64,000 nt of DNA from Acidobacteria bacterium Ga0077534 (lineage in GTDB: Bacteria; Acidobacteriota; Blastocatellia; Pyrinomonadales; Pyrinomonadaceae). The notes beneath the pieces were generated by a model. That model was given only the letters and a program-made list of their open reading frames with translations, had not been told where the DNA came from and made no database searches. Below, one piece after another: positions 45,265-58,353 of the stretch (position 1 is its first letter; each line of letters opens with the position of its first letter). A program made the position numbers and the translations under genes. The stretch is taken from contig LNEI01000018.1 of NCBI GenBank assembly GCA_001464455.1, positions 124,001 through 188,000 on the forward strand, written 5' to 3'.

Positions 45265-45897
45265 ATGAACGAAGCCGTATCTTCAATTCATAGCTCCGAC
45301 CTTCGTCGCGGGTTCGAACTTCTTCTGGAGGCTGTTAAGAAGCCCAATCGAGATGCCGTAGAGGATTATCAACGAATAAGGACAAAGCTGTGTCGATTTT
45401 TTGGGGCCTACTCTGTGGTAGATCCGGACGAGTTAGCTGACGAGTCGATCGATCGAGTCGCTCGTAAGCTCGGTTCCGGTACCGTGCTAGATCTTTCTAG
45501 CGACAGCTATTTCTTGACTGTAGCAAGATTCGTTCTCCTGGAACATCGCCGCGGCCGTCTAAACAGAGCCGTCTCGCTGGATGATGAGGAATCCCATTTT
45601 GAACCAAGTTATGATCCAACCGAGGAGGTAGAACTTATCAGTGAACGCCTCAAGAAAGAGATTGGCCTTGATGCGATAGCGGAATGTCGACGCAAACTTT
45701 CGAGCAAGGAACAGGAGATACTTGGCACCTACAATGGTGGCGCCGGACGAGAAAAGATAGAGCGAAGAAATGCGTTAGCTCTGAAGCTCGCTATGAGTAA
45801 GGAAGCCCTTGTCGTCGCGGTGTCACGTATAAATTCGAAACTAAAAAACTGTGTCAGGCAAAAATTGGCAAATCAGCCGCTGTTTGCCGGAGCGTAG
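45265..45897 (+). CDS. ECF-type RNA polymerase sigma factor (island-borne)
   Basis: A 210-residue sigma-70 family protein. Region 2 is seen around LCRFFGAYSVVDPDELADESIDRVARKL (residues about 47-75) and the following FLTVARFVLLEHRRGR. Region 4 is near KLSSKEQEILGTYN and KLAMSKEALVVAVSRINSKLKNCV (about 150-200). It is followed at 45952 by a membrane anti-sigma candidate. Four promoter-like sites of one type in the island, one overlapping the stop codon of this gene and preceding the anti-sigma gene, make it the likely regulator of the CHAP, TonB-C and secreted-protein genes. The start at 45265 is the first ATG after the putative promoter. Confidence 0.85.
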   Translation: MNEAVSSIHSSDLRRGFELLLEAVKKPNRDAVEDYQRIRTKLCRFFGAYSVVDPDELADESIDRVARKLGSGTVLDLSSDSYFLTVARFVLLEHRRGRLNRAVSLDDEESHFEPSYDPTEEVELISERLKKEIGLDAIAECRRKLSSKEQEILGTYNGGAGREKIERRNALALKLAMSKEALVVAVSRINSKLKNCVRQKLANQPLFAGA

Positions 45898-45951: not shown

Positions 45952-46899
45952 ATGACAGACGAAAAACTTGTCCAAATGAGAAGCTACTGGCTTGGAAGCC
46001 AATCGGAGGACGAACGTGCCGCGCTGGAAGATCTCTGGTTTGAAAGCGACTCAGATGTCGAACTCCTTTCAGCGGTTCGCGACGACCTCATTGAGGACTA
46101 TCTGTCCAACGATCTGACGGCCGAAGAAAATTCTAAGTTCAAATCATTTTTCATCGGCGAACTTGGAATGGCTACGGAAGTAGGAATTTCGGCAGCAATC
46201 AGGGAAGCCGTATTTTCGCCGATTGTTAAGAACCTGTCGGAAGAACGCGCTGAAAGTCTTTTTTCATGGCTCTCGACTAATCTTCGCGGATCCTTTCTTT
46301 GGGGGCCGCTACCCGCTGCGGTTGGAGCCTGTTTGATTTTCTTCGTGATCGGGGCCTTTTGGTTTTGGAGCTTTCTTTCGCCAACTATCGACGTTGCCGG
46401 CGTTCAGGTTGCTGACAAGGAAACTCCCCAGCCAATAAATGTAAATTCCGGGGATGCCCCGCAGGATCCCCCAAAAACCCCCGACCGACCTGATTTAAGA
46501 CCGCCCTCATCGCCTCTACCTTCGCCTAAAGCTCAGGATCCGCGTTCAACTTTATCAGGTCCTGTAACACTAGTTCTAGGAGCAGCTGTCCGTGGCGAGG
46601 GGAAAATAACGGAAGCGTCGATTCCGAAAAACGCCGCTGAAGTTCGTCTCCTCTTCCCAATGCCTGGGCTTCGTGAAAATTACGATAAGTATCTGGTCCG
46701 GGTAGTATCTGATAGCTCCGGCAAGGTTGTAAAACAAATTTTGCTGGAGGACCTTTCGACGAAAAGGATTGGCGAAGATGTCTTGGTAGTCATTGATCGT
46801 CCGAGATTTGCAGTAGGAGAATACAAACTAGTTTTGCTCGGTATAGTCGATTCTAGGACGGAGAGCTTACTTGAACGAGGCTTTCGGGTCAAACCGTAA
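45952..46899 (+). CDS. membrane anti-sigma factor candidate
   Basis: A 315-residue protein. The N-terminal 100 residues match the cytoplasmic anti-sigma pattern without zinc ligands (VRDDLIEDYLSNDLTAEENSKFKSFFI). One membrane segment lies near residues 118-140 (PAAVGACLIFFVIGAFWFW). A proline-rich linker leads to a periplasmic beta-rich domain (about 200-315) with VTLVLGAAVRGEGK and VRLLFPMPGLRENY. The position right after the sigma gene and its own ECF-type promoter fit a sensor that holds the sigma factor until a periplasmic signal arrives. The gene converges with 46901. Confidence 0.75.
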   Translation: MTDEKLVQMRSYWLGSQSEDERAALEDLWFESDSDVELLSAVRDDLIEDYLSNDLTAEENSKFKSFFIGELGMATEVGISAAIREAVFSPIVKNLSEERAESLFSWLSTNLRGSFLWGPLPAAVGACLIFFVIGAFWFWSFLSPTIDVAGVQVADKETPQPINVNSGDAPQDPPKTPDRPDLRPPSSPLPSPKAQDPRSTLSGPVTLVLGAAVRGEGKITEASIPKNAAEVRLLFPMPGLRENYDKYLVRVVSDSSGKVVKQILLEDLSTKRIGEDVLVVIDRPRFAVGEYKLVLLGIVDSRTESLLERGFRVKP

Positions 46900-46900
46900 A

Positions 46901-48427
46901 CTACGTGCCGCGAGCGAGAATGCGCACCTCAATCTCAGTAAGCCCTCTAAAAGGAGAGACTTTCGATTTCGTCCTTTCCAGTGCACGCGAAGTTACGCGC
47001 CGCGAAACTCTCGCCTCACCGATACCAAATTCCAGGGATTTTTCCGTAAGTAAAGCCGCCCTCGCTTCTGCAAGCGCGCGAATCTGGGATTCGTCTCCGA
47101 TATCCTCAACGTCGATAATGATGACGATCTCAAAATCATTTTTTTCAGAGAGCTTTGAAAATAGCGGTGTGAGCCGATTGAAATTGCTTTCAGCCACCAT
47201 AGCGGACCGAGCTGACCAAATATCAGCAGGAAGAGTTAAAACAAGGCTCCCGCGATCCTCACGTACTTTACCGAATTCAGCAAAAAACCCGCGGTATAGC
47301 GAAAAGTCCGCAAGAATGTCGAGTCGTCGGGACAACGCGGTTTTCTCCGCGGTTACGTCGGCGACTCTTTTTTTTAGCTCTTCATTCTCCAGCTTGAGCC
47401 GAATGCTCTCCTTGTTCGCGTCGTCCAGTTTAATCTCCGTGTCCTGAATTCGCTGCTCCATCGATAGTCGCCGACCTTCTTCTCTTTGGAGCTGAGAAGT
47501 AAGTTCATCTGTACGCTCCTTGAAAAAGGCCAGACTATCTTCATTCTCTTTCCGCTCATTTTGACGCCTGGTTTCAAGTTGTGTCTCGCGCCGAAGTTGA
47601 CGGAGTTTTTCAGCCTCTTCCTCGGCATTGGAGGCGAGGATCTCAACCTCAAGTGCAGACTGTTCGATCTCGGTCGACGATGCCTTCTTTTTGATCCTTT
47701 CGTTAAGATTAGTAAACTTCTCCCTTGCTACCTTATATTTTTCCGAGGCATACAGCTCGGCATTTGCGTACCGAGCCAAGCTCAGCGCCCGTTCAGCTCT
47801 AAGCACTGGCAAAGGTATCTTTCGGTAGGCTTTCTCTCCGCTACCAACCACCTGTTCGTTACTAAAGTAATCGCTGTTGTTGACAGTGTAGGCGACACTG
47901 GTTGTTGTAATTGAATACCTTATCTTAGAGCTAGAATAGTCGTTCTCAAGCATAACAAAACGGCTCGGAACCCGAACCTGAGTGTGCGGTTCAGCTGTTA
48001 CAACTATCGCAAACGCTTGTAATGGAGTTGTCGCCTTGGCCTCTCGATCCCCGGCCCCTTGAACCTTGCTATCAATTATCGCAACGTTAGATGTCTTCCC
48101 GTTCGGCTCGATCGTCCAGGCAATATAAGTCGTGTAAAGCCCGCCAAGATCAAGAACGGCTGGTAGATTCTTGATCTTGATCTCAACTTTTGTGCCTTCG
48201 CGCTCGGTACGCTCTACCTTTAACGTCCCACTTAACTTAGGAAACCGTTTGTTCCCGGCCAACATGATCTCAACGTTTTGTTTCGGAGGATAAGTAAGCA
48301 CCGTCGCGTCCCTTATCGTTGAGTTGTCGTTTTGCCCTAAAACTAACTGCGCTAAACACCAAATTATCGCCGTTGCACAGCAAAGGCGCATGGAGAAAAA
48401 ATGGTGATGGGTTCGGCTTAATTCCAT
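46901..48427 (-). CDS. secreted coiled-coil protein with an OmpA-like C-terminus
   Basis: A protein of up to 508 residues; the ATG at 48391 (MRLCCATAIIWCLAQLVLGQ) would begin directly with the signal peptide and is perhaps the true start. An N-terminal beta domain (about 35-190) is followed by a long charged coiled coil (about 220-370), then a C-terminal domain of about 130 residues with FEIVIIIDVEDIGDE and ALAEARAALLTEKSLEFGIGEARVS, which has the layout of OmpA/MotB peptidoglycan-binding domains although the usual NxxLSxxRA is only partly kept (LAEARA). It ends two bases from the convergent anti-sigma gene and lies 14 bases after the caspase gene. Confidence 0.65.
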   Translation of the reverse strand: MELSRTHHHFFSMRLCCATAIIWCLAQLVLGQNDNSTIRDATVLTYPPKQNVEIMLAGNKRFPKLSGTLKVERTEREGTKVEIKIKNLPAVLDLGGLYTTYIAWTIEPNGKTSNVAIIDSKVQGAGDREAKATTPLQAFAIVVTAEPHTQVRVPSRFVMLENDYSSSKIRYSITTTSVAYTVNNSDYFSNEQVVGSGEKAYRKIPLPVLRAERALSLARYANAELYASEKYKVAREKFTNLNERIKKKASSTEIEQSALEVEILASNAEEEAEKLRQLRRETQLETRRQNERKENEDSLAFFKERTDELTSQLQREEGRRLSMEQRIQDTEIKLDDANKESIRLKLENEELKKRVADVTAEKTALSRRLDILADFSLYRGFFAEFGKVREDRGSLVLTLPADIWSARSAMVAESNFNRLTPLFSKLSEKNDFEIVIIIDVEDIGDESQIRALAEARAALLTEKSLEFGIGEARVSRRVTSRALERTKSKVSPFRGLTEIEVRILARGT

Positions 48428-48441
48428 CTGATATTTCAGTT

Positions 48442-50340
48442 TTATAGACCTCTAACCACTATCCGAAAGCCAATGTCTGGAAATGTTTCATCATGAGGGG
48501 CTTGACCTCGGTAGCCGGTTCTAACATCGGTAGCCAATGATTTGTATGATCCGCCACGAATCACTCTTCGCTTGGATTCAGTGAGTCTTGGACTAGCATC
48601 GGACGGGGCTCCGATATAGTTACTATGCCATGTGTCGAGACACCACTCAGCAACATTCCCGTGAACATCAAAAAGGCCAAATCCATTGGCTACCTTCAAA
48701 CTGCCTACTGGAATAGTGCCTCCGCGGCTTATCCCCCCCTGGCTAAGGGTAACCGATGACAGCCGGTTACTCGCATCGTAATTTGCGATCTGCCCAGTTA
48801 ATTTTGCACCAAAAGCGAAAGGCCCACTTGAACCTCCCCCCGCCATGTATTCCCATTCTGCCTCGCTGGGCAAATCATATTTCTTTCCGGTTAGTTTGCT
48901 TAACCGCAAACAAAACTCTTTTGCCTCTTCCCACGAAATATTCTCAACAGGCAGCGAATCTCCCCTGTTTGAGGACGGATCCGCAAACAATGTCATGTTT
49001 ACTTTGGGCAACTTCGAAACGAACCTCCATTGTTTCTGAGTAATTTCATAGGCAGACGCAAAGAAGGAGTAGACTGGCACCTCTCGAACCGGCTTTTCTT
49101 CGTTGTTGTCGGCCGAGCCCATCTTGAAACGACCGGCAGGAATCTCTACCATCGTAAGAAAATCCCCGTCGCCCACAGGCTCAGCAAAGAACTTTGCAAC
49201 CTTAGATGACCGCGCTTCGGCGCCTCGCGAATCGATAGATACCGTAGCGTAGTCATATGTACGAAAACTCAATGGAGCAGGCGCAACCTCGACGGGTGTT
49301 GCCGCACGCGTAGCCTGGTTGGGCGAGGAGAGTTTTTTCAGCAACCCTCTTGCTTCTTCCGCTTGTGGAGAGCCCGGGTAGTTGGCAATGAACCGCTTCA
49401 GTTCGTCGGGATCATTCATAACTACCGAGCGCCAGGCTTGTTCTGCACGAAGCGCGTTCTTGGCACGAAACTCCGCCGGAACCCTAAAGATCATGTCTCC
49501 CTGATTAAGTCTGAGATCATTTATCGCGCCGTACAATGGAGTTTGGGACCTCCTGGTATAGTTAGTGACTCTCTCCTTTAAGAAATACGCAAGCTCTGTA
49601 GCCGTGATGAATCCGTCAAAATTCTTATCTGCTTCGCCACCTAAGCCCTCGACAAACACCCTTCGGAAATAGCTATCGTCGCTTACTTTTTGGTTGGCTG
49701 AACCGGAGGTCAAAAATTGCCTCGCTGGTTTGCTCAAATACTCTTCAATTACTGGCGGTAAACTTAGATCGGAACGAGTGAGAAGCGTTCCGGAAAAACA
49801 ACTGTCAAAAACAAAAAGCGCATGCTTGGTGTCCATTCGGCGGGCCCAGTTCTCAACGTTCGTGAGACTGATTGCTTTTTGCTTGAAACCTCTCTCATTC
49901 TGGGAAAACTTCGGAGCATCAACCGGAATAATATACCCAACCTCTCGGCCATCGCTTAACCGTTGAGTATCACCATGACCCGCGAAATATATGATCAGGC
50001 GGCTGTCGTCGATGTAACCATATTCATTAATGAACTTGGATACTCTCTTTTCAAGGGCCTCACTCTCGAGATTGAGAGCCGTTTCAACAAGAAACCCCTG
50101 GCTTTTCAAGGAGCGATCGATCTCAAGAATGTCCGTCTCTACACCAACCAACTTGTCCCAATATTGGTAATTGCTGTTTCCAAGCAAAAGCGCATAGCTG
50201 CCGCCTTTATACAGCTCAAGATTCTGGCCGTCTTTACGAGAAATGACTACTTTCTCGACGCCCGAGCGAACCGATTCCTGCGAGAAAACCGATGAGGCAA
50301 GTGCAATGCCGCATAATAAGCGTGCTAATAATCTCATCAT
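48442..50340 (-). CDS. secreted caspase-like (C14) protease fused to an FGE/SUMF1 domain
   Basis: From the ATG at 50340 a 632-residue protein with a signal peptide (about residues 1-20, ending SVFSQ). The caspase-like domain (about 45-300) holds the catalytic dyad His122 (YFAGHGD) and Cys181 (FDSCFSG). A short TPR-like linker (about 305-340) leads to a formylglycine-generating-enzyme-type domain (about 388-632): MVEIPAGRFKMGS, LPSEAEWEYMAGG, DVHGNVAEWCLD and RRVIRGGSYKS. FGE-type domains in such fusions often bind partners rather than modify sulfatases. It lies next to an ECF sigma/anti-sigma pair and may respond to envelope or invader signals. A longer frame to 50448 lacks a signal at its start. 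Confidence 0.85.
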   Translation of the reverse strand: MMRLLARLLCGIALASSVFSQESVRSGVEKVVISRKDGQNLELYKGGSYALLLGNSNYQYWDKLVGVETDILEIDRSLKSQGFLVETALNLESEALEKRVSKFINEYGYIDDSRLIIYFAGHGDTQRLSDGREVGYIIPVDAPKFSQNERGFKQKAISLTNVENWARRMDTKHALFVFDSCFSGTLLTRSDLSLPPVIEEYLSKPARQFLTSGSANQKVSDDSYFRRVFVEGLGGEADKNFDGFITATELAYFLKERVTNYTRRSQTPLYGAINDLRLNQGDMIFRVPAEFRAKNALRAEQAWRSVVMNDPDELKRFIANYPGSPQAEEARGLLKKLSSPNQATRAATPVEVAPAPLSFRTYDYATVSIDSRGAEARSSKVAKFFAEPVGDGDFLTMVEIPAGRFKMGSADNNEEKPVREVPVYSFFASAYEITQKQWRFVSKLPKVNMTLFADPSSNRGDSLPVENISWEEAKEFCLRLSKLTGKKYDLPSEAEWEYMAGGGSSGPFAFGAKLTGQIANYDASNRLSSVTLSQGGISRGGTIPVGSLKVANGFGLFDVHGNVAEWCLDTWHSNYIGAPSDASPRLTESKRRVIRGGSYKSLATDVRTGYRGQAPHDETFPDIGFRIVVRGL

Positions 50341-50596
50341 GATTCGTCCACCGATCAGGGAAGCATCCCTGTCTTCAAAAAAACCGTACTTAGAAAGCCA
50401 AATGTGATGGGCTGTATAATACCCGCAAATGCGAGAAATTCCAAACAAATCGGGCCCAATTGATTTTGCGGCGTGGATTATGGGGCTAATATAAAATCGA
50501 GTTCAACCGACATGAAATTGACAAGCCCGAAAAATCGCGTCGAAATCACCTTCTGCTTCGATTTGAGGATTCCTCATTAGTTTTTTTCGAAGGAAC

Positions 50597-50917: not shown

Positions 50918-53740
50918 TTACCGCCCTGTAGCGAAGAAGGGCGCCCAAAAGAATGGATGTGGTTTGGAGCGGAGCAAGTGCCGCTGTGCTTTGCAGAGAG
51001 ATCTTGCGGGAGAATGCCCGTCACGGAGCCCTAAGTAGAAATCCCGCATCAGGTCAACGGTTGTTGCGTCGTGAACATTCCAGAGGCTCATGACGAGCGA
51101 GGTCGCTCCGGTTGAAAGAAATCCTCGAGCCAAGCCAAGCAACTCGTCACCGGGGGCGATCCGGTTAATGCCTGTTTCACACGCACTTAACACGACCAGA
51201 TCGACCTCCAGATTCATCGAGTACAGATCCCGAACGGTTAGCCATCCATCAGCAAGCTTTAGGGAAGAAAACAGCGGATTTTCCGCTCGGAATTGTCCGT
51301 GGCAAGCGAGATGAAGCACGTCCTTGTTTCTGCAAACGTCGATGAGACTGTCAGCTCGTGCATGATCGCCGAGGAGCGTTTCTCCCTCGAAGATAGAGAC
51401 GATCTCGTTTATTTCTGTATTTACGTGAGGAATCCGTTCGTCCGAAAGACCCGCGAACGCACCTGATTTCAGTCGGCGGCGAGTTTTTGCCAGGGACTGT
51501 CCAAGGAAAGTCGCCGATGGCGTGTAGCTAACGTCCCGTTCTTCAACCAGATACCCAAATCCGTCAAACAAGGCATGAAACGGGATGTAGTTTAGACTGC
51601 GATAAGGGGCAACGATGAGATGTCGATTCCCGACAAATTTAGTAAGTGGAAGAATAAGAGCATCGTACAGTTGACCGAGAATCTTTCTTGTTCGTAAGGT
51701 CAGTTCGTAGAGATGCCGGTCAAAAGCGGAAAGATCCGACCTTAGGGCATCGATCTGAAAATACAGTCTTTGGACCATATCGTTTGCCGCCGACTCCGTG
51801 CAAAGATCAGAAACGACCTTGATCGAATCATTGGTGACGACGAAGGCGATGAGGTTCCCATTCAGCTCGGTGTATTCGACCAGGGCGGCTTCGTCACCCA
51901 GCACTTTTTGGAGACCCGGAAGATCGAGGTCCGACGTGGCGGAGGCATCTGATGTTAGGTCTTTGATCTGGCGCTGGGCAAAGATCTCTCCAAGTTCGAC
52001 CTCGCGTTCTAAAGCGTCCCGATGAAGATTTTCGATACTTGGACCATCGTTCGCGGCATTTCTAGGTCCGGGTTGATTGATCTGATTGTAGAGCCAATTT
52101 AACTCGACACGCAGCTGACTCGCCTTTTTCTCCATTAGGTCTGCCGGCATATCCGAGATCTCTCGATCATTTCGATTCGTCAGTTCTATGAGGCTTCTCG
52201 ACCTCGCCCTCTCGAGAAAATCGAAAGCCTCCTCGATTCGGTCCTGACTTTGAAGGCAGAGCCTCATCATTTCTCGATAGGGCAGGACCTTGTCTACGAA
52301 GAAGGAAGCCCGAAAATCCTCGGAAGGCAAGGGGGAGCGAAGATTCTCGGTTGTTTCGACTGCCTTAATTAGATACCGCTCGGCGATCACAGTATCTCCA
52401 AGTGCTTCGGCTGTAAGGCCCAGAGCGGTCAATGATCGCGATGCGAGCAGTGGTAGGTGGTATTGATCCGCTTCGCTGAGCACCTCTTCGAGCAGGGTAC
52501 GTGCCTCGGCGAGTTGTCCGGTCATTCTTAGACATTCGGCTCGAAGAAGATCCGCATCCAACTCCGAACCTTTTATCCGAGAGGTGGTGAGCGGAATCTC
52601 TGCTTCTCCCAAAGTCGCGAGAGCCTTTCTATAGTCCTGCTGACTGAACCAGAACTGGGCAAGGCTAATAAGAACATTCGCCTCGCCTGCTGAACTTTTA
52701 CAGGAGACAAATTTTTGTCTTGCTTCGGTCAGCAGTAGTTGGGCTGATCGCGTCTCGCCCTCGGCGAAACTGATCCTGGCAAGATTCGCAAGACTCCTTG
52801 CGTGTTCGATCGACATGCCTGTTTCAGCAAAGATCTTTGCTGTTTTCTTGTACAAGGACGCCGCCTCTGCATGGAGGTTTAGCTCAAGGTAAGCATCCGC
52901 CATTTCAAGTTCTGCTTTCGCACTCTGATGGAACATTCCGAGAAGCTCATAACTTGAGCGAGCCTTACCCAGAAATTCAAGTGCACGGTCGTACCGTGCC
53001 TGAAAAAGTGAGAAATAACCTATGTTTGACTCGATCTCGGCCTTGGTAACCACTAGGCCGACTCGATCTGCCAAGCTGTATGCCTCTGCGTACAACTCAT
53101 CGGCCTCCACGAACTTGTAACGGTTAGAAAGTACAAACGCTAGTGAATTTGTCACCTGAGCAAGTGTCCTCAGATCGTCTGAATTCAGCAGCCGTTCGCG
53201 CGCTGACCGAAGCATTTCCTCGGCCTCTTTATATCTCTCGCTTAACTGGAGGATGTTACCCAAATTGTGTTCGATCCGAACAATGGCTGAGTGATCGGAG
53301 AACCGCACGAAGATCTCTCGGGCCCAAAGCCCGTCCGCGATCGCTTCATCGTAGCGTCCAAGCATTGCCAGCGGATAGAGTTTGGCGATCTGGGTAGAGG
53401 CAGCCGTGTGCAGGTCGTCTAGGTGCTCGAAACTCGCGCGCGACTTGCTGAGCCGTGTAACTGCTCGCCGCAGTTCGCCGCCGATCATCGCGGCGATGCC
53501 GTCAGCCCAGTCAGCGTAGGCTATCATCTCGCCCTTGGGGAATATCTGGGAAAGAAGTCGTAGGGCTTTCGAGGCCGACAGGGACCTGTTGGGCTCCGCT
53601 GCCCAGGAATTCAGACAAATGTCGAGCAAAAGTCGTGCGAGGCCCTTATCAATAAGCGTGGTACGGCTCTCGATCAGTTCCCTGCGTTCGAGATCCGAGT
53701 CTGCCTCGATCAGGGCGTGAGCAAGTTCTTCCGGAGTCAT
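50918..53740 (-). CDS. TPR-CHAT protease
   Basis: A 940-residue protein. Residues about 90-500 are tandem TPR-like helical repeats (for example LARYDRALEFLGKA, LYAEAYSLADRVG, RALATL-type units). A CHAT domain, a caspase-family protease fold, fills about 640-940 with the catalytic histidine in HLACHGQF (about 812) and cysteine in LSACETGI (about 852). There is no signal peptide, so it is cytosolic. It is the last of three genes sigma, anti-sigma and TPR-CHAT on the minus strand, 21 bases after the anti-sigma gene. TPR-CHAT proteins include Csx29 of Craspase and other regulated proteases; here no CRISPR partner is present. Confidence 0.9.
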   Translation of the reverse strand: MTPEELAHALIEADSDLERRELIESRTTLIDKGLARLLLDICLNSWAAEPNRSLSASKALRLLSQIFPKGEMIAYADWADGIAAMIGGELRRAVTRLSKSRASFEHLDDLHTAASTQIAKLYPLAMLGRYDEAIADGLWAREIFVRFSDHSAIVRIEHNLGNILQLSERYKEAEEMLRSARERLLNSDDLRTLAQVTNSLAFVLSNRYKFVEADELYAEAYSLADRVGLVVTKAEIESNIGYFSLFQARYDRALEFLGKARSSYELLGMFHQSAKAELEMADAYLELNLHAEAASLYKKTAKIFAETGMSIEHARSLANLARISFAEGETRSAQLLLTEARQKFVSCKSSAGEANVLISLAQFWFSQQDYRKALATLGEAEIPLTTSRIKGSELDADLLRAECLRMTGQLAEARTLLEEVLSEADQYHLPLLASRSLTALGLTAEALGDTVIAERYLIKAVETTENLRSPLPSEDFRASFFVDKVLPYREMMRLCLQSQDRIEEAFDFLERARSRSLIELTNRNDREISDMPADLMEKKASQLRVELNWLYNQINQPGPRNAANDGPSIENLHRDALEREVELGEIFAQRQIKDLTSDASATSDLDLPGLQKVLGDEAALVEYTELNGNLIAFVVTNDSIKVVSDLCTESAANDMVQRLYFQIDALRSDLSAFDRHLYELTLRTRKILGQLYDALILPLTKFVGNRHLIVAPYRSLNYIPFHALFDGFGYLVEERDVSYTPSATFLGQSLAKTRRRLKSGAFAGLSDERIPHVNTEINEIVSIFEGETLLGDHARADSLIDVCRNKDVLHLACHGQFRAENPLFSSLKLADGWLTVRDLYSMNLEVDLVVLSACETGINRIAPGDELLGLARGFLSTGATSLVMSLWNVHDATTVDLMRDFYLGLRDGHSPARSLCKAQRHLLRSKPHPFFWAPFFATGR

Positions 53741-53761
53741 ATGGACATCGCTCTCCGTGTA

Positions 53762-54361
53762 CTAGCTGATATCAAGCTCCGCAAACTCGGCCGTAATACT
53801 CTCCGAGTGAAAGATAAAGCGATATACGCCCTCGGGCACCGCATCGAATTTGAACTCTCCATCAAGCCCGACCGAGGCCGATCGGGTATCGGTCGAACTT
53901 TCGAGCGAGATGTTGCCGTGCTCTACATCGCCGAGAATTTGTCCGTGAAGGTCGAATCCAGCCGAAACACGCTTCAAGCGAAGGTCAAAGGTAATGTCGC
54001 CCGCCGACAAGAGAATCTGACGTCCCGCTGAAGCGTGACCCGATCGGAAGCCATGCGCCGGGCCGAGCTTGGCACTATCAAATCGAAGGGCGGCGGAGAT
54101 CTTTTCAACCAGCGTCGGTTTGGGATCGGCAGCCTGCACGGGCCTTTCGTCAAAGGCTCTCAATATCGAAGCTAGGGCGTAAGCAGGTGCGTCCTCGGTA
54201 CGGTCCTGACGCATCGTGGTAACTATTTGCTCAACCGCGTCTTTCTCGAACGAACAGCGTGAGCAGGTGCGAAGGTGCTCCACGAGCGTAGAGTTATATG
54301 CGTGATCGATAACCATGTCGGCGATCTCTTCAAAACTTAAATGGGGAGCGAACTCGTTCAT
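53762..54361 (-). CDS. soluble zinc-finger anti-sigma candidate with a C-terminal beta domain
   Basis: A 199-residue protein. The N-terminus has the anti-sigma zinc pattern HxxxCxxC in VEHLRTCSRCSFE (about residues 28-40) with an upstream helix ISFEEIADMVI-like (LSFEEIADMV). No membrane segment is visible. The C-terminal half (about 110-199) is beta-rich, with GRQILLSAGDITFDLRL and a carboxypeptidase-regulatory-like ending (SVGLDGEFKFDAVPEGVYRF). It lies 92 bases after the sigma gene and 21 bases before TPR-CHAT. A cytosolic anti-sigma next to a cytosolic protease suggests that the protease may cleave or read it. Confidence 0.72.
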   Translation of the reverse strand: MNEFAPHLSFEEIADMVIDHAYNSTLVEHLRTCSRCSFEKDAVEQIVTTMRQDRTEDAPAYALASILRAFDERPVQAADPKPTLVEKISAALRFDSAKLGPAHGFRSGHASAGRQILLSAGDITFDLRLKRVSAGFDLHGQILGDVEHGNISLESSTDTRSASVGLDGEFKFDAVPEGVYRFIFHSESITAEFAELDIS

Positions 54362-54453
54362 TATTATTTACTCCGATTGGGGCTGATCAAGTAACTTCAT
54401 TTAACAGAGACGTTCGGCCGCCCAAAAATACAAGCCATAAAAAGTTAAGTGCC

Positions 54454-55068
54454 TTATCCGCGTTCCTTCAATGTTCGTTTAAGTTTTTCAAGGCATCTCG
54501 CACGATTCGGACCAATGCTTCCTTCGCTTATTCCCAGGGTTTTCGAGATCTCGGCATATGCGATCTGGTCATTCTGATAAAAGAGCAACAGAATCAACTG
54601 CCTGCATCGTTCATCGAGATTTCCAACTGCCGTCCTAACTAGATGCTGTCGTTCTAGTTCCATCAAAGCTTCGTCTGCGAGAGGCTGCTTTGCTTCGATA
54701 TCGAAGCCGAGATTCTCGTCGTCACCCTCTATGGAAATCTCCTTTTTTCCACCGCGAAGAATATAAAGGGTCTGACGCCTGGCAGTCGTTACAAGCCAGG
54801 CGTGTATCTGAGAGGGCTGCTTGATCTTGGTTATATTCTCGAGGAGCTTCAGAAAGGTATGTTGGAGTACATCCGCCGCGATGTCCTCATCCAGTCCCGC
54901 ACGACGAGGTATCGAATATATCAGCCGCTGATACCGCGCAACCAAAGCGGCCCAGGCATCACTATCGCCCTGGCCGCACGCATTCACCAACTCTTCGTCA
55001 CTTATCTCTGCCAAATTAAAAGGAGTGGTCAACCACAATAAAGTCCTAACATTGCTATTGAAGCACAA
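54454..55068 (-). CDS. ECF-type RNA polymerase sigma factor (second cluster)
   Basis: A 204-residue ECF sigma factor. Region 2 includes LVARYQRLIYSIPRRAGLDEDIAADVLQHTFLKL (residues about 42-75, quoted in part) and region 4 LDERCRQLILLLFYQNDQIAYAEISKTLGISEGSIGPNRARCLEKLK (about 150-195, quoted in part). The N-terminal 15 residues before FNLAEISDEELV are not conserved in the family, so a later start is possible. It heads the minus-strand cluster with the anti-sigma candidate and the TPR-CHAT protease. No copy of the island ECF-type promoter motif is seen here, so it has a different specificity. Confidence 0.88.
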   Translation of the reverse strand: MCFNSNVRTLLWLTTPFNLAEISDEELVNACGQGDSDAWAALVARYQRLIYSIPRRAGLDEDIAADVLQHTFLKLLENITKIKQPSQIHAWLVTTARRQTLYILRGGKKEISIEGDDENLGFDIEAKQPLADEALMELERQHLVRTAVGNLDERCRQLILLLFYQNDQIAYAEISKTLGISEGSIGPNRARCLEKLKRTLKERG

Positions 55069-55190: not shown

Positions 55191-55556
55191 ATGTCCAAAC
55201 TGCGCTTCGAGCCTGGTTCCGAGTACCTATATGCCTACATCGAGAGCGATGTAGATTCCTATGAGATCGCGTTGGGGCACTGGCAAGAGATCGCGGCTGA
55301 ACTTTTCGAGCGGGGGCTCAAACGCGTATTAGTTCATGAAAATATTGTAAGTGAACTTTCGGACGTTGAGACGTTTCGGCTTGCGTCTGAGCTGAGGGCG
55401 ATCGGGTTTGCCGGCGTAAAGATCGCGATCCTTGATGTGCACCCGACGCATCAATGTTCTACGGAGTTTAGTGTTCTTGTTGGAACGAATAGAGGGCTGC
55501 AGGTCCAAGCGTTTGGAACAGCTGACGAAGCCGAGCAGTGGCTTCTGACCGGATAA
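55191..55556 (+). CDS. SpoIIAA/STAS-like small protein
   Basis: A 121-residue soluble protein divergent from the sigma operon. The pattern (strand YLYAYIESDVDS, helix HWQEIAAELFERG, strand LKRVLVHENIV, helix ASELRAIG, strand VKIAILDV, and a C-terminal DEAEQWLL helix) fits the SpoIIAA-like STAS fold, as in small bacterial proteins of the anti-anti-sigma type. The phosphorylatable serine of classic SpoIIAA is not obvious. A partner-switch role with the neighbouring sigma system is possible but unproven. The ATG at 55191 follows a GGAGAT site. Confidence 0.6.
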   Translation: MSKLRFEPGSEYLYAYIESDVDSYEIALGHWQEIAAELFERGLKRVLVHENIVSELSDVETFRLASELRAIGFAGVKIAILDVHPTHQCSTEFSVLVGTNRGLQVQAFGTADEAEQWLLTG

Positions 55557-55795
55557 AGGCGTCAATAGTATCGTTAAAGAGAGGGCTCCGCAGCCCTCCG
55601 GCAAAGTGCGTCTAAACGTCTGAAAACACGTGCGTTAGCCCAAAAATAATATTTTTTTTGAATGTATTTTCTTCTTCGTGAGAGGCTCTGTTCATCGGAA
55701 TCAAAGTTCACGCAGTCGACACGGCCTAAACGCGGCAAATTGACCGAAGCGTGATGAATTCCAGATCAAAGATTGGAATACAAGGGAGAATAATA

Positions 55796-56875
55796 ATGAT
55801 CAACAGAATAATCGGAATCACTGCATCTGCTCTTTTCATCTTCGTCATGGGTGCGACGGCGCAGACTATGACGACAACACTTGAACTAAAACGGGCCTGC
55901 GAAACCAGCCCAAACAACATTGTAAACCTCAACGTAAACACCCAGATCTCATCCGGCCCGCAAACGCCGCTTACCGAGTTCGTCAACACCAAGTGCACGC
56001 TCGTTATCAGCCCACTAGTCACTTTTGAAGCGTCGCAAGTATCAATGACATTTAACGGCCCATTTCGTGTTCAAGCCGGAAACGAGGGACATGTGCTTTT
56101 TATTGAAAGCGCCTTTACTGCTCCGGCGATCTCGATCACTCAGATCAGCAAAAGCAAGCTGGAAGTAGAACGATCACTTCTCCGCGCACTAGCGGGCAGC
56201 ATCGTGATCAACTCAGGTACTGAGGGCAGCGTTGACGTGAAAGGCCCTCTTGTTGGTGGGAACCTTGTTGCAACCGGTGCGATAAGCATTAATGGCGGCA
56301 CGAAGTTTTTTGGCAGCTTCGCAGACGCAGGTGCAAGTGCGGGCACCGGCATCTCGGTCAACATGACGGGTGCTGAGGCGCAGTTTATCGCGGTAACTTC
56401 CACGCTTGCGGCGAACAACGGTGCAATAAATGTCCAATCGTCGGGAGATAAGAGCTATGCTGAGTTCAAGCTCGGCTCAGTGGTCTCGTCACCCCGCGGA
56501 GTTAGTGTTCGCTTGAACGGGAATGAATCAGAGATCGTTGCGAGCCAGTTCACGCTCGACGGCGGTACGGGGATCATCCTTCGCACAGGTGGGAACAAAG
56601 GTAAGGTGACGATGGCGGATGGCTCCGCGATAGCCGATGCGGCAATTCTGGTTCAATCCTCGACAACTGGGCGGGACGGCGTGGTTGTGGCTCAGAACGC
56701 TACATTCAACTCTGGAACAGCTACACGTTTTGAAACCGGGAGCTTCGGCAATACTGAGGTGCTTGACAGCGGGCTCACCGCTGGAACTTTGGTTCGTATC
56801 GCTACCGGTCTTGGTGGAACTTGTAAGTCGCAAAACAACATAATCTCAGCTGCTTCGCAGCAGATTTGCCAGTGA
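55796..56875 (+). CDS. secreted right-handed beta-helix-like repeat protein
   Basis: From the ATG at 55796 (AAGGGAG site) a 359-residue protein with a signal peptide (about residues 1-23, ending TAQ). The rest is built of short Gly- and Asn-rich strands of the form ISINGGTKFFG, INVQSSGDK, VRLNGNESEIV, GGTGIILRTGGNKGKV, the usual sign of a parallel beta helix. No active-site motif is apparent. It may be a surface or extracellular-matrix protein. A terminator follows at 56908. Confidence 0.6.
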   Translation: MINRIIGITASALFIFVMGATAQTMTTTLELKRACETSPNNIVNLNVNTQISSGPQTPLTEFVNTKCTLVISPLVTFEASQVSMTFNGPFRVQAGNEGHVLFIESAFTAPAISITQISKSKLEVERSLLRALAGSIVINSGTEGSVDVKGPLVGGNLVATGAISINGGTKFFGSFADAGASAGTGISVNMTGAEAQFIAVTSTLAANNGAINVQSSGDKSYAEFKLGSVVSSPRGVSVRLNGNESEIVASQFTLDGGTGIILRTGGNKGKVTMADGSAIADAAILVQSSTTGRDGVVVAQNATFNSGTATRFETGSFGNTEVLDSGLTAGTLVRIATGLGGTCKSQNNIISAASQQICQ

Positions 56876-57054: not shown

Positions 57055-58353
57055 ATGAAGCTGTCTCGCATACTATTCGCACTGGCAATTCTGTTTTTTT
57101 TCATATCGTTTGGGAATGCAGCTTTCGGCCAAAGTGAGAATGAATACGTACCGAATGAGATCGTCGTAAAGCTAAAGAGTTCGTCCGACCTCGTTTCGAT
57201 CGCTTCACTCTATGATCTTGACCTGCAACCGATCGATCAGTTCGGGTCACGGCCGATCTATCGGCTCCGAATACTGGACGGGTCGCTGCCACCTGACCTC
57301 GCAGAGCGATTACTCAACGATCCGGACGGTCGGATCATCTACGCAGAACCTAACTTTCTGGGCCAAACGCCCGAGGGAAACGGCCAATCCTGGTCCGTTG
57401 GACAGTCCTGGAGCGTCGGGCAGTCCTGGAGCGTCGGCCAATCATGGAGCGTCGGTGCGACCGGAGGAGTCGCGAATCTTTGGTTCAGGGATCGAATTCG
57501 TCTGCGTGAGGCTCACCGAATAACCCGCGGCGAGGGAATAACGGTTGCGGTGCTCGACACAGGAGTTGACCGCACGCATTCGGTTTTGGCTCCGCAACTT
57601 GTCGGCGGCTTTGATTTCGTTGATTTCGATGATGATCCGAGCGAGGTTGGCGTCCATGGAATAGATGCGGGATATGGACATGGAACGCACGTCACAGGTC
57701 TGATCGCTGCCGTTGCTCCGAGGGCCAAGATCGTGCCGATCCGAGTGCTCGATCAAAACGGGATCGGTAACATTTGGGTGCTTGCTGAGGCGTTGAAGTA
57801 TGCCGCGACCGTGGATCCTGACGGCGATCCAAGTACGGACGATAAGGTTCAGGTCATTAATATGAGCTTTGCGACGCGAAGACCAACTAACCTGCTCAGC
57901 GATGTAATATCAATGATCACCTGCGAGGGCGACGACGACAATGACGGCGAAGCCTGCTACGCGGAAGATCGAAATGGAATTGCCGTCATCGCCGCTGCCG
58001 GAAATAGCGGGATTTCGGTGCCTGAGTATCCGGCGGCCGAAAGAGTTTCCGGATCCCTAGCGATCGCGGCTACGAATCAGCAAGATCGCAGAGCGTGGTT
58101 CTCGACTTATGGTGACTGGGTCGAAGTTGGGGCTCCTGGCGTAAATATTCGCAGCACCGTACCTGGCGATCGTTTTGGAGCTTGGAGCGGAAGCTCGATG
58201 GCCGCTCCCTTGGTAGCCGGAAAAGCCGCGTTGATCAGGTCACGCCACCGCGAATTCAAAGCGGCTGACGTTACTAACTTTATCGTCTCAAAATCGGACT
58301 CCATCACGGGTGATGTTCAAAAGCGGATCAACTTGTACGAGGCCGTCAAATAA
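57055..58353 (+). CDS. secreted subtilisin-like (S8) protease with a QSWSVG repeat linker
   Basis: A 432-residue secreted protease with a signal peptide (about residues 1-25), an I9/fervidolysin-type propeptide (about 30-108, VPNEIVVKLKSS to IIYAEPNFLG) and a catalytic S8 domain (about 140-430). The triad is Asp168 (VLDTGVD), His near 209 (GHGTHVTGL) and Ser near 380 (GSSMAAPLVAG). Between propeptide and catalytic domain lie four exact repeats of QSWSVG (57384-57455), probably a surface linker or autocleavage region. It probably acts on envelope or extracellular proteins. The ATG has an AAGGAAGG site. Confidence 0.9.
   Translation: MKLSRILFALAILFFFISFGNAAFGQSENEYVPNEIVVKLKSSSDLVSIASLYDLDLQPIDQFGSRPIYRLRILDGSLPPDLAERLLNDPDGRIIYAEPNFLGQTPEGNGQSWSVGQSWSVGQSWSVGQSWSVGATGGVANLWFRDRIRLREAHRITRGEGITVAVLDTGVDRTHSVLAPQLVGGFDFVDFDDDPSEVGVHGIDAGYGHGTHVTGLIAAVAPRAKIVPIRVLDQNGIGNIWVLAEALKYAATVDPDGDPSTDDKVQVINMSFATRRPTNLLSDVISMITCEGDDDNDGEACYAEDRNGIAVIAAAGNSGISVPEYPAAERVSGSLAIAATNQQDRRAWFSTYGDWVEVGAPGVNIRSTVPGDRFGAWSGSSMAAPLVAGKAALIRSRHREFKAADVTNFIVSKSDSITGDVQKRINLYEAVK
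57384..57455 (+). repeat. four tandem 18-base repeats encoding QSWSVG
   Basis: Each 18-base unit encodes Gln-Ser-Trp-Ser-Val-Gly; codon variants (CAA/CAG, TCC/TCA, AGC/TCC) show they are not a very recent duplication throughout. Confidence 0.95.

Follow-up and report, generated by a model that had tools for sequence, protein, structure and literature searches.

A conserved module of an ECF sigma factor, a probable anti-sigma factor, a TPR-CHAT protease and a subtilase in Acidobacteriota

Organization of the locus

The window analyzed here, a stretch of 64,000 nucleotides from the 4.2-Mb genome of Acidobacteria bacterium Ga0077534 (contig LNEI01000018.1, positions 124,001 to 188,000), carries four genes that form a real conserved module in Acidobacteriota: an extracytoplasmic function (ECF) sigma factor (SIG), a small soluble protein that is a candidate anti-sigma factor (AS), a protease with tetratricopeptide repeats (TPR) and a CHAT domain (CHAT), and a secreted subtilase (SUBT). 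Three of them occupy the minus strand at the positions given by the first-pass annotation of this DNA: SIG at 54454-55068 (204 residues from a TTG start, the true start being uncertain), AS at 53762-54361 (199 residues), and CHAT at 50918-53740 (940 residues). SUBT, the fourth member, is here divergent and displaced (57055-58353, plus strand) and matches Pfam Peptidase_S8 (E = 2.2e-39) and the Fervidolysin propeptide (9e-7).

SIG contains Pfam sigma-70 regions 2 and 4 and matches the NCBIfam model sigma70-ECF TIGR02937 (E = 8.9e-25), in agreement with its earlier naming as an ECF sigma factor. CHAT combines a TPR array (approximately residues 110-470, 52331-53413; Pfam TPR_12, 1.7e-21), modeled as helical pairs with mostly high predicted local distance difference test (pLDDT) values, with a CHAT domain (residues 686-939, 50924-51685; Pfam CHAT, E = 9.8e-59). 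The catalytic pair, described before as intact, is present as His814 (51299-51301) and Cys854 (51179-51181), and both residues occur in 82 of the 82 relatives that reach them (92 aligned). Among solved structures, the CHAT chains closest to it are listed under the names CHAT domain protein, TPR-CHAT or Csx29; the NCBIfam Csx29 model scores 61.9 bits against CHAT, below its curated cut-off of 300. Foldseek matches of the TPR array included LGN, Rap and NprR arrays, with LGN ranked above Rap and NprR. The structure model of CHAT (two sequences) was poor in the CHAT domain, with a mean pLDDT of 54.8.

AS is predicted to consist of an N-terminal zinc anti-sigma domain, a linker and a C-terminal beta-sandwich. 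Its zinc motif, H29-x3-C33-x2-C36 (HLRTCSRC, residues 29-36), lies at 54254-54277; the conserved linker motif, R106-S ... R114-Q115, at 54017-54046; and the beta-sandwich of the AlphaFold2 model, residues 114-198, at 53768-54022, all on the minus strand. In the window, AS and CHAT are separate open reading frames (ORFs), with no fusion of the zinc anti-sigma (ZAS) domain to CHAT.

Conservation and gene order

AS matches numbered 54 in the family, the window being one of them, in 46 of 119 genomes. At E <= 1e-4, a profile of 52 AS members (A1) matched 105 of the 162 class genomes and 61 of the 297 phylum genomes, counts that overstate the spread because many are weak beta-domain matches in long unrelated frames. 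Loci were taken from the 53 other family matches and from 47 outside the family (E-values between 4.7e-63 and 1.9e-7; 46 stretches); left out were weak or partial A1 matches, mostly to the beta-domain in long frames, as well as L087, which has no intact AS, and L004, which duplicates L105. The final set held 100 AS proteins, window included, of which 61 are flanked on each side by 5 kb or more of contig. ORFs around the loci were classified by profiles; their ends are mechanical, and some (at L039, L143, L147 and L150) overlap their neighbors. Subtilases were counted from 150 bits up, and the weak matches (30-44 bits) at L043, L044, L047 and L049 are not subtilases.

At 53 of the 61 well-covered loci, SIG, CHAT and SUBT all lie within 4.5 kb of AS, a count that the 150-bit floor leaves unaffected; within the same distance, SIG and CHAT occur together at 56 loci, CHAT at 59, and none of the three at a single locus. 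The order SIG>AS>CHAT>SUBT was found at 55 of the 100 loci, SIG>AS>CHAT with no subtilase in view at 14, the rotated order CHAT>SUBT>SIG>AS at 7, and a divergent subtilase upstream of SIG at 3, the window among them, while the remaining 21 are fragments at contig ends or rarer orders. The occurrence of two orders, one of them a rotation, indicates that the gene set survives rearrangement. Genes on one strand are closely spaced, with median gaps of 71 (SIG-AS), 37 (AS-CHAT) and 48 bases (CHAT-SUBT). Clustering of the other neighbors yielded families present at no more than 23 loci each, and some of these look like antisense frames. In the reverse direction, CHAT proteins of the module type (E <= 1e-100) were found in 46 of 118 family genomes, 44 of which belong to the 46 of 119 genomes that hold AS; this search includes several contig-end fragments and one remote relative (G096:C194, 345 bits). 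At seven plasmid loci around other CHAT genes, AS, SIG and SUBT had no match at E <= 0.1. The linkage of the four genes is far beyond chance, and the first-pass annotation, which had made its proposal hinge on conserved co-occurrence in other genomes, was borne out in this respect.

In searches reaching beyond the phylum, one contig scan with the window AS gave one relative, and tblastn with a related AS gave two weak partial matches in plasmids; profile A1 had no match in six plasmid records, a search run with no positive control. None of the plasmid neighborhoods of CHAT genes that were inspected contained a module of this type. Three loci of family f16 (L140, L141 and L142) have the order SIG>CHAT>AS>SUBT, or AS>SUBT with no CHAT nearby, and may show which of the genes are separable.

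A module boundary at the STAS-like gene 55191-55556 had also been proposed. That gene is not part of the module: neither Pfam nor NCBIfam gave a match for it at E <= 0.01, it was unmatched at loci L035-L087, and the fourth gene is the subtilase. The gene at 55751-56875 was likewise rejected as a member, being matched at L042 only among the same loci. Its protein is without a family, with no Pfam match over the cut-off, and the relative at L042 adjoins CHAT and a subtilase.

AS as a candidate anti-sigma factor

The N-terminal half of a profile built from 38 AS proteins, mostly zinc-bearing, matched the anti-sigma factors RsiW (5wuq_C, 3.7e-7), DdvA (8rlz, 3.6e-5) and ChrR (2.7e-4), and the N-terminal half used alone (21 sequences) matched DdvA (9.5e-7), RsiW (1.1e-6), 8rot_B (5.5e-5) and ChrR (5.1e-4). 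The best solved match of SIG is the SigW chain of the same entry (5wuq_A, E = 1.8e-8), so that the pair in the window matches both partners of one complex. A hydrophobic N-terminal stretch was found in 0 of 100 AS proteins, and a hydrophobic stretch anywhere in 1 of 100, the window AS having none. On the grounds of the homology to RsiW, DdvA and ChrR, the SigW match of SIG and the lack of a membrane anchor, AS is very probably the anti-sigma factor of SIG.

The earlier description of AS as a soluble zinc-finger anti-sigma candidate thus holds for the window protein, with its RsiW homology, its HLRTCSRC motif and no hydrophobic stretch, but the motif is inconstant in the wider family. The pattern Hx3-4Cx2C occurs in 70 of 100 AS relatives and is invariant in the 38-sequence alignment A5; Pfam zf-HC2 was called in 14 of 38 proteins from a set that is mostly zinc-bearing, and was not called in the window AS. 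In the 23 zinc-less sequences analyzed, G-E-R-S and R-Q are invariant (23/23). In a FastTree phylogeny of 83 CHAT proteins, the zinc label needs four changes, and one large clade of family f1 members is almost entirely zinc-less. Zinc-bearing and zinc-less AS proteins occur together in several genomes (e.g., G009, G042, G074 and G076).

The C-terminal half of AS is a beta-sandwich in the AlphaFold2 model, in which mean pLDDT was below 50 for residues 1-112, 65 for 111-120, and 77-91 for the later blocks. By Foldseek and VIA-align, this half matched general Ig-like folds only (best Z, 9.7). Weak sequence matches pointed to carboxypeptidase-regulatory-like domains, NOMO2 among them, and CarboxypepD_reg was called in 10 of 38 proteins at E <= 0.01, not including the window AS. 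Between the two halves, R106 is present in 100 of 100 sequences, R114 in 95 and Q115 in 84. R106 falls after the last helix and before the beta-sandwich, in a stretch where no secondary structure is predicted and model confidence is low. Separase and related enzymes prefer arginine, and an invariant arginine such as R106 at the junction of two domains is the kind of site that a clan CD protease might cut; R106 is a candidate cleavage or docking site.

Co-variation among the module proteins

Co-variation was measured as partial correlations of pairwise distances over 74 loci. The N-terminal half of AS tracked SIG (0.68) and the C-terminal half tracked CHAT (0.49), with cross terms of 0.21 and 0.28, and the contrast between these terms was above zero in every one of 400 bootstraps, both over all loci and within family f1. 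This pattern is consistent with AS acting as an adaptor that joins CHAT to SIG. In the run that covered the AS linker, the SUBT terms include the four weak-match loci; the two-sided contrast uses no SUBT.

Relation to known systems

The gene context itself is already known. In the passages of PMC8999054 that concern ECF54, CHAT, subtilase and carboxypeptidase domains are described around the sigma factor gene, with Geodermatophilus as an example, and this group is described as working with no anti-sigma factor. The same domain set accompanies an ECF sigma gene at the 53 loci counted here, a likeness of gene context alone. The difference is that the carboxypeptidase-like protein of our module bears an RsiW-type anti-sigma domain, and the protein occupying this place in the ECF54-like context is likely, as far as homology can tell, to be the anti-sigma factor here. 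Full-text searches on CHAT with sigma or subtilase returned publications on Craspase and a single passage of a review, and among the matches listed there was no publication naming AS as an anti-sigma factor.

In the excerpted text of PMC10028731, Craspase comprises a TPR-CHAT protease (Csx29), an ECF sigma factor (CASP-sigma) and a sigma inhibitor (Csx30) with an N-terminal sigma-binding part, to which AS is likened by description. Our locus likewise places a TPR-CHAT protein that has the catalytic His and Cys next to an ECF sigma gene and a candidate sigma inhibitor. It differs in that the inhibitor would be a 199-residue zinc protein and that a subtilase is added. The statement that the locus has no CRISPR link was upheld: no Cas model exceeded its cut-off among 10 neighboring proteins (NCBIfam) or among 6 (PADLOC), Cas7-11 being sought at the locus only, and no CRISPR-like repeats were found in the 44-62 kb part of the window.

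A zinc anti-sigma domain joined to a CHAT protein is also seen in solved structures. The 991-residue chain 8rot_B, named CHAT domain-containing protein, has aligned N-terminal residues identical to those of DdvA (8rlz), so an anti-sigma domain and a CHAT domain exist as one chain. DdvA of 8rlz is, we presume, part of the Myxococcus DdvS-DdvA pair that controls a CRISPR-Cas locus. In 8rot and 8rw5 the arrangement is one fused polypeptide, whereas our module has two genes plus a beta-sandwich and a subtilase. The proposal that the module is a new system accordingly has to be narrowed: its context has been published and a DdvA-type zinc domain opens the 8rot CHAT chain, and the new parts are the anti-sigma assignment of AS and the peptides of the subtilase.

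SigW-RsiW and the ChrR-type ZAS factors share with our pair a homologous anti-sigma domain and a sigma factor. RsiW is membrane-bound, whereas AS lacks a membrane anchor. AS shows the traits of soluble ZAS factors, namely Hx3Cx2C, no anchor, and an ECF sigma gene within 4.5 kb at 56 of 61 loci; ChrR, as excerpted in PMC8999054, has a cupin-like half where AS has the beta-sandwich. The HetF-PatU3-HetZ system of Anabaena resembles the module in that a transcription regulator is relieved of its inhibitor by a protease, one belonging to the family that gave CHAT its name, and differs in the regulator and inhibitor and in having no sigma factor (passages of PMC12288457).

A model for sigma factor release

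Starting from the gene set, its conservation, the domains, the catalytic residues, the invariant arginine and the co-variation of the AS halves with their partners, we lean, on balance, toward a model in which the genes form one switch and SIG would be released by CHAT-dependent cutting of AS. We infer the following course for binding, signal, cleavage, cut site and targets. The N-terminal helices of AS, an RsiW-type zinc anti-sigma domain, would clamp SIG and keep it inactive, and the C-terminal beta-sandwich would dock on the TPR-CHAT protease. On sensing a signal through the TPR array, the CHAT domain would cut the AS linker between the halves, with R106 as the candidate site, whereupon the clamp would collapse and SIG would drive its target genes. 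SUBT may be a co-regulated output or part of the signal path. Precedents, as given in the excerpted sources, are Csx29, which cuts the sigma inhibitor Csx30 (PMC10028731), and HetF, which can cleave PatU3, a protein that limits HetZ (PMC12288457).

Several observations weigh against this model. The zinc motif is absent from 30 of 100 AS proteins, and a profile of the 23 zinc-less sequences matched no anti-sigma structure at E <= 5, so that an anti-sigma function is only putative in the zinc-less branch. The co-variation contrast is weaker in subsets, where the numbers of bootstraps at zero or below, each out of 400, were 31 (zinc-bearing loci), 19 (zinc-less loci) and 7 (loci outside f1), and the gene order SIG-AS-CHAT combined with recombination could yield the same pattern. 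The AS linker tracks SIG (0.35) over CHAT (0.16) and TPR (0.02), which a contact with the sigma factor would explain no worse than a cleavage site. Upstream of SIG, no ECF promoter motif common to the loci was recognized; the search there gave weak signals only, some like ordinary sigma-70 boxes, and scanning the region for promoter-like patterns gave 4 sites, compared with a mean of 6.0 after shuffling.

The strongest competing account, which we consider rather unlikely, is that CHAT is an output: SIG would be freed by another signal acting on the AS zinc finger and would raise CHAT and the subtilase as effectors that act in cell death, in defence or in predation. According to the excerpts of PMC8999054, oxidative stress is a common signal for soluble ZAS factors, and CHAT and the subtilase lie downstream in the same apparent operon. 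The subtilase looks secreted, with a hydrophobic N-terminus in 61 of 72 cases, which argues that at least this protein is an output. This account sits poorly with the loss of the zinc ligands in 30 of 100 AS proteins although the module persists, and mere output would not explain why the C-terminal half of AS co-varies with CHAT.

Two further accounts seem improbable to a similar degree. The published proposal for ECF54, made from the conserved carboxypeptidase, subtilase and CHAT context (as stated in the ECF54 passages of PMC8999054), holds that the proteases degrade the sigma factor itself to keep the system off, with no anti-sigma factor; however, our module encodes an anti-sigma candidate, and the subtilase, mostly with a hydrophobic N-terminus, would sit outside the cell. 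It is similarly doubtful that CHAT serves as a scaffold or co-inhibitor that attaches to AS and adjusts how firmly AS holds SIG, leaving AS uncut, as may happen in fused ZAS-CHAT proteins: the two domains do share one chain in 8rot, but the retention of His814 and Cys854 in every relative that reaches them argues for catalysis. A chance or passive neighborhood with no common function is next to untenable: no observation favors it, and it is refuted by the linkage, which covers two main orders and several families of one phylum. The seven plasmid loci around other CHAT genes, where AS, SIG and SUBT are unmatched, also speak against it.

If release of SIG by cutting of AS is right, control of a sigma factor by CHAT would be a recurrent acidobacterial circuit rather than a CRISPR curiosity, with Craspase as a specialized parallel; ECF54-like systems would gain a plausible anti-sigma factor, and R106 would be the single residue on which the idea can be tested.

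Repeat peptides in the subtilase

By simple patterns, all 72 module subtilases contain the Asp active-site motif and 70 the His motif. Between its propeptide and catalytic domain, the window SUBT carries four tandem GQSWSV units (57382-57453, plus strand). Such units were analyzed in 42 subtilases of at least 400 bits, comprising 40 of family f1 plus L105 and L109, both of which lack a unit. At least two units were found in 37 of the 42, and within a protein the units were all identical in 36 of these 37, although 23 unit types occur among 40 proteins; when copies were exchanged between loci in 2000 shuffles, the mean was 2.4 matches and the maximum 8. The unit copies have diverged at synonymous sites (pS 0.54) compared with a nonsynonymous divergence (pN) of 0.03, the latter due in part to L040 and to Ser codon switches. 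This test needs no identity of copies but omits the degenerate leader unit; with the leader kept, neighboring units agree at 307 of 384 positions, with pS 0.59 and pN 0.14.

Other families have a unit of QRSLAFID type, and in 10 of 10 arrays, which were picked as exact repeats, the DNA copies differ. The module subtilase of L140 (8576-10477) has 17 QSTGAILD-type units, all different in DNA (pS 0.73, pN 0.025), one unit of this type lying past the catalytic Asp motif. An exact tandem repeat before the catalytic Asp was found in 47 of 82 subtilase ORFs, a few of low complexity; these 82 include a few weak non-subtilase matches, and the codon test there selects exact repeats by construction. Identical peptides with diverged synonymous sites mean that recent duplication is insufficient to explain the identity of the copies, which appears, from these codon comparisons, to be under selection. 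The array may serve as a peptide signal, a repeated self-cleavage site or a structural spacer.

One reading, to which we give little credence, is a self-contained peptide-signaling circuit in which SUBT would serve as the pheromone precursor and also as the protease that matures it: its identical units of 6 or 8 residues would be released, imported and then sensed by the TPR array of CHAT, which would cut AS. An RRNPP-type system would pair a TPR receptor like Rap or NprR with an exported precursor that yields a peptide of 5-10 residues, and here the signs are equivocal: identical units of that size occur in part of the subtilases, and the Foldseek matches of the TPR array include Rap and NprR but rank LGN higher. 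The circuit reading is weakened by the fact that array-bearing subtilases make up only part of the module set, and by the partial correlations of unit distance over 35 loci, in which the link to TPR is weak (0.21) and no stronger than that to SIG (0.23; subtilase domain, 0.08). Arrays also occur at other positions in two further subtilases of the window genome, which likewise speaks against it. If true, such a circuit would mean that TPR peptide receptors can also act by freeing an ECF sigma factor through proteolysis, a kind of output new for them, and that a protease conceals the signal within its own sequence; the repeat peptides are by themselves an unexplained and directly testable observation.

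The window genome has 10 other subtilase loci, and in the 7 that could be placed, no tandem units were found within 120 residues before the catalytic Asp. Arrays are present in two of its non-module subtilases, with 11 GVLVGD-type copies in L160 (contig C25) and 20 copies of the GITLTGAD type in L162 (contig C8), nearly all identical in protein and all different in DNA (pS 0.67 and 0.79).

Neighboring sigma factor and protease genes

A second pair resembling a sigma factor and its anti-sigma factor lies in the window, consisting of SIG2 (45265-45897) and a membrane-type anti-sigma-like candidate (45952-46899). It is situated approximately 4 kb or less from a gene with caspase and FGE domains (48442-50448), the only caspase found in the genome; this gene is adjoined by a coiled-coil-like protein (46901-48427) with weak SMC-like matches only. 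Caspase systems with ECF sigma genes have been discussed as a related idea in passages of PMC8195603. Three SIG2-type genes were found in the genome, one at the caspase gene and one at each of the two other CHAT genes (L088 and L089), so that all four clan CD protease genes found there (three CHAT, one caspase) lie within approximately 4 kb of an ECF-type sigma gene.

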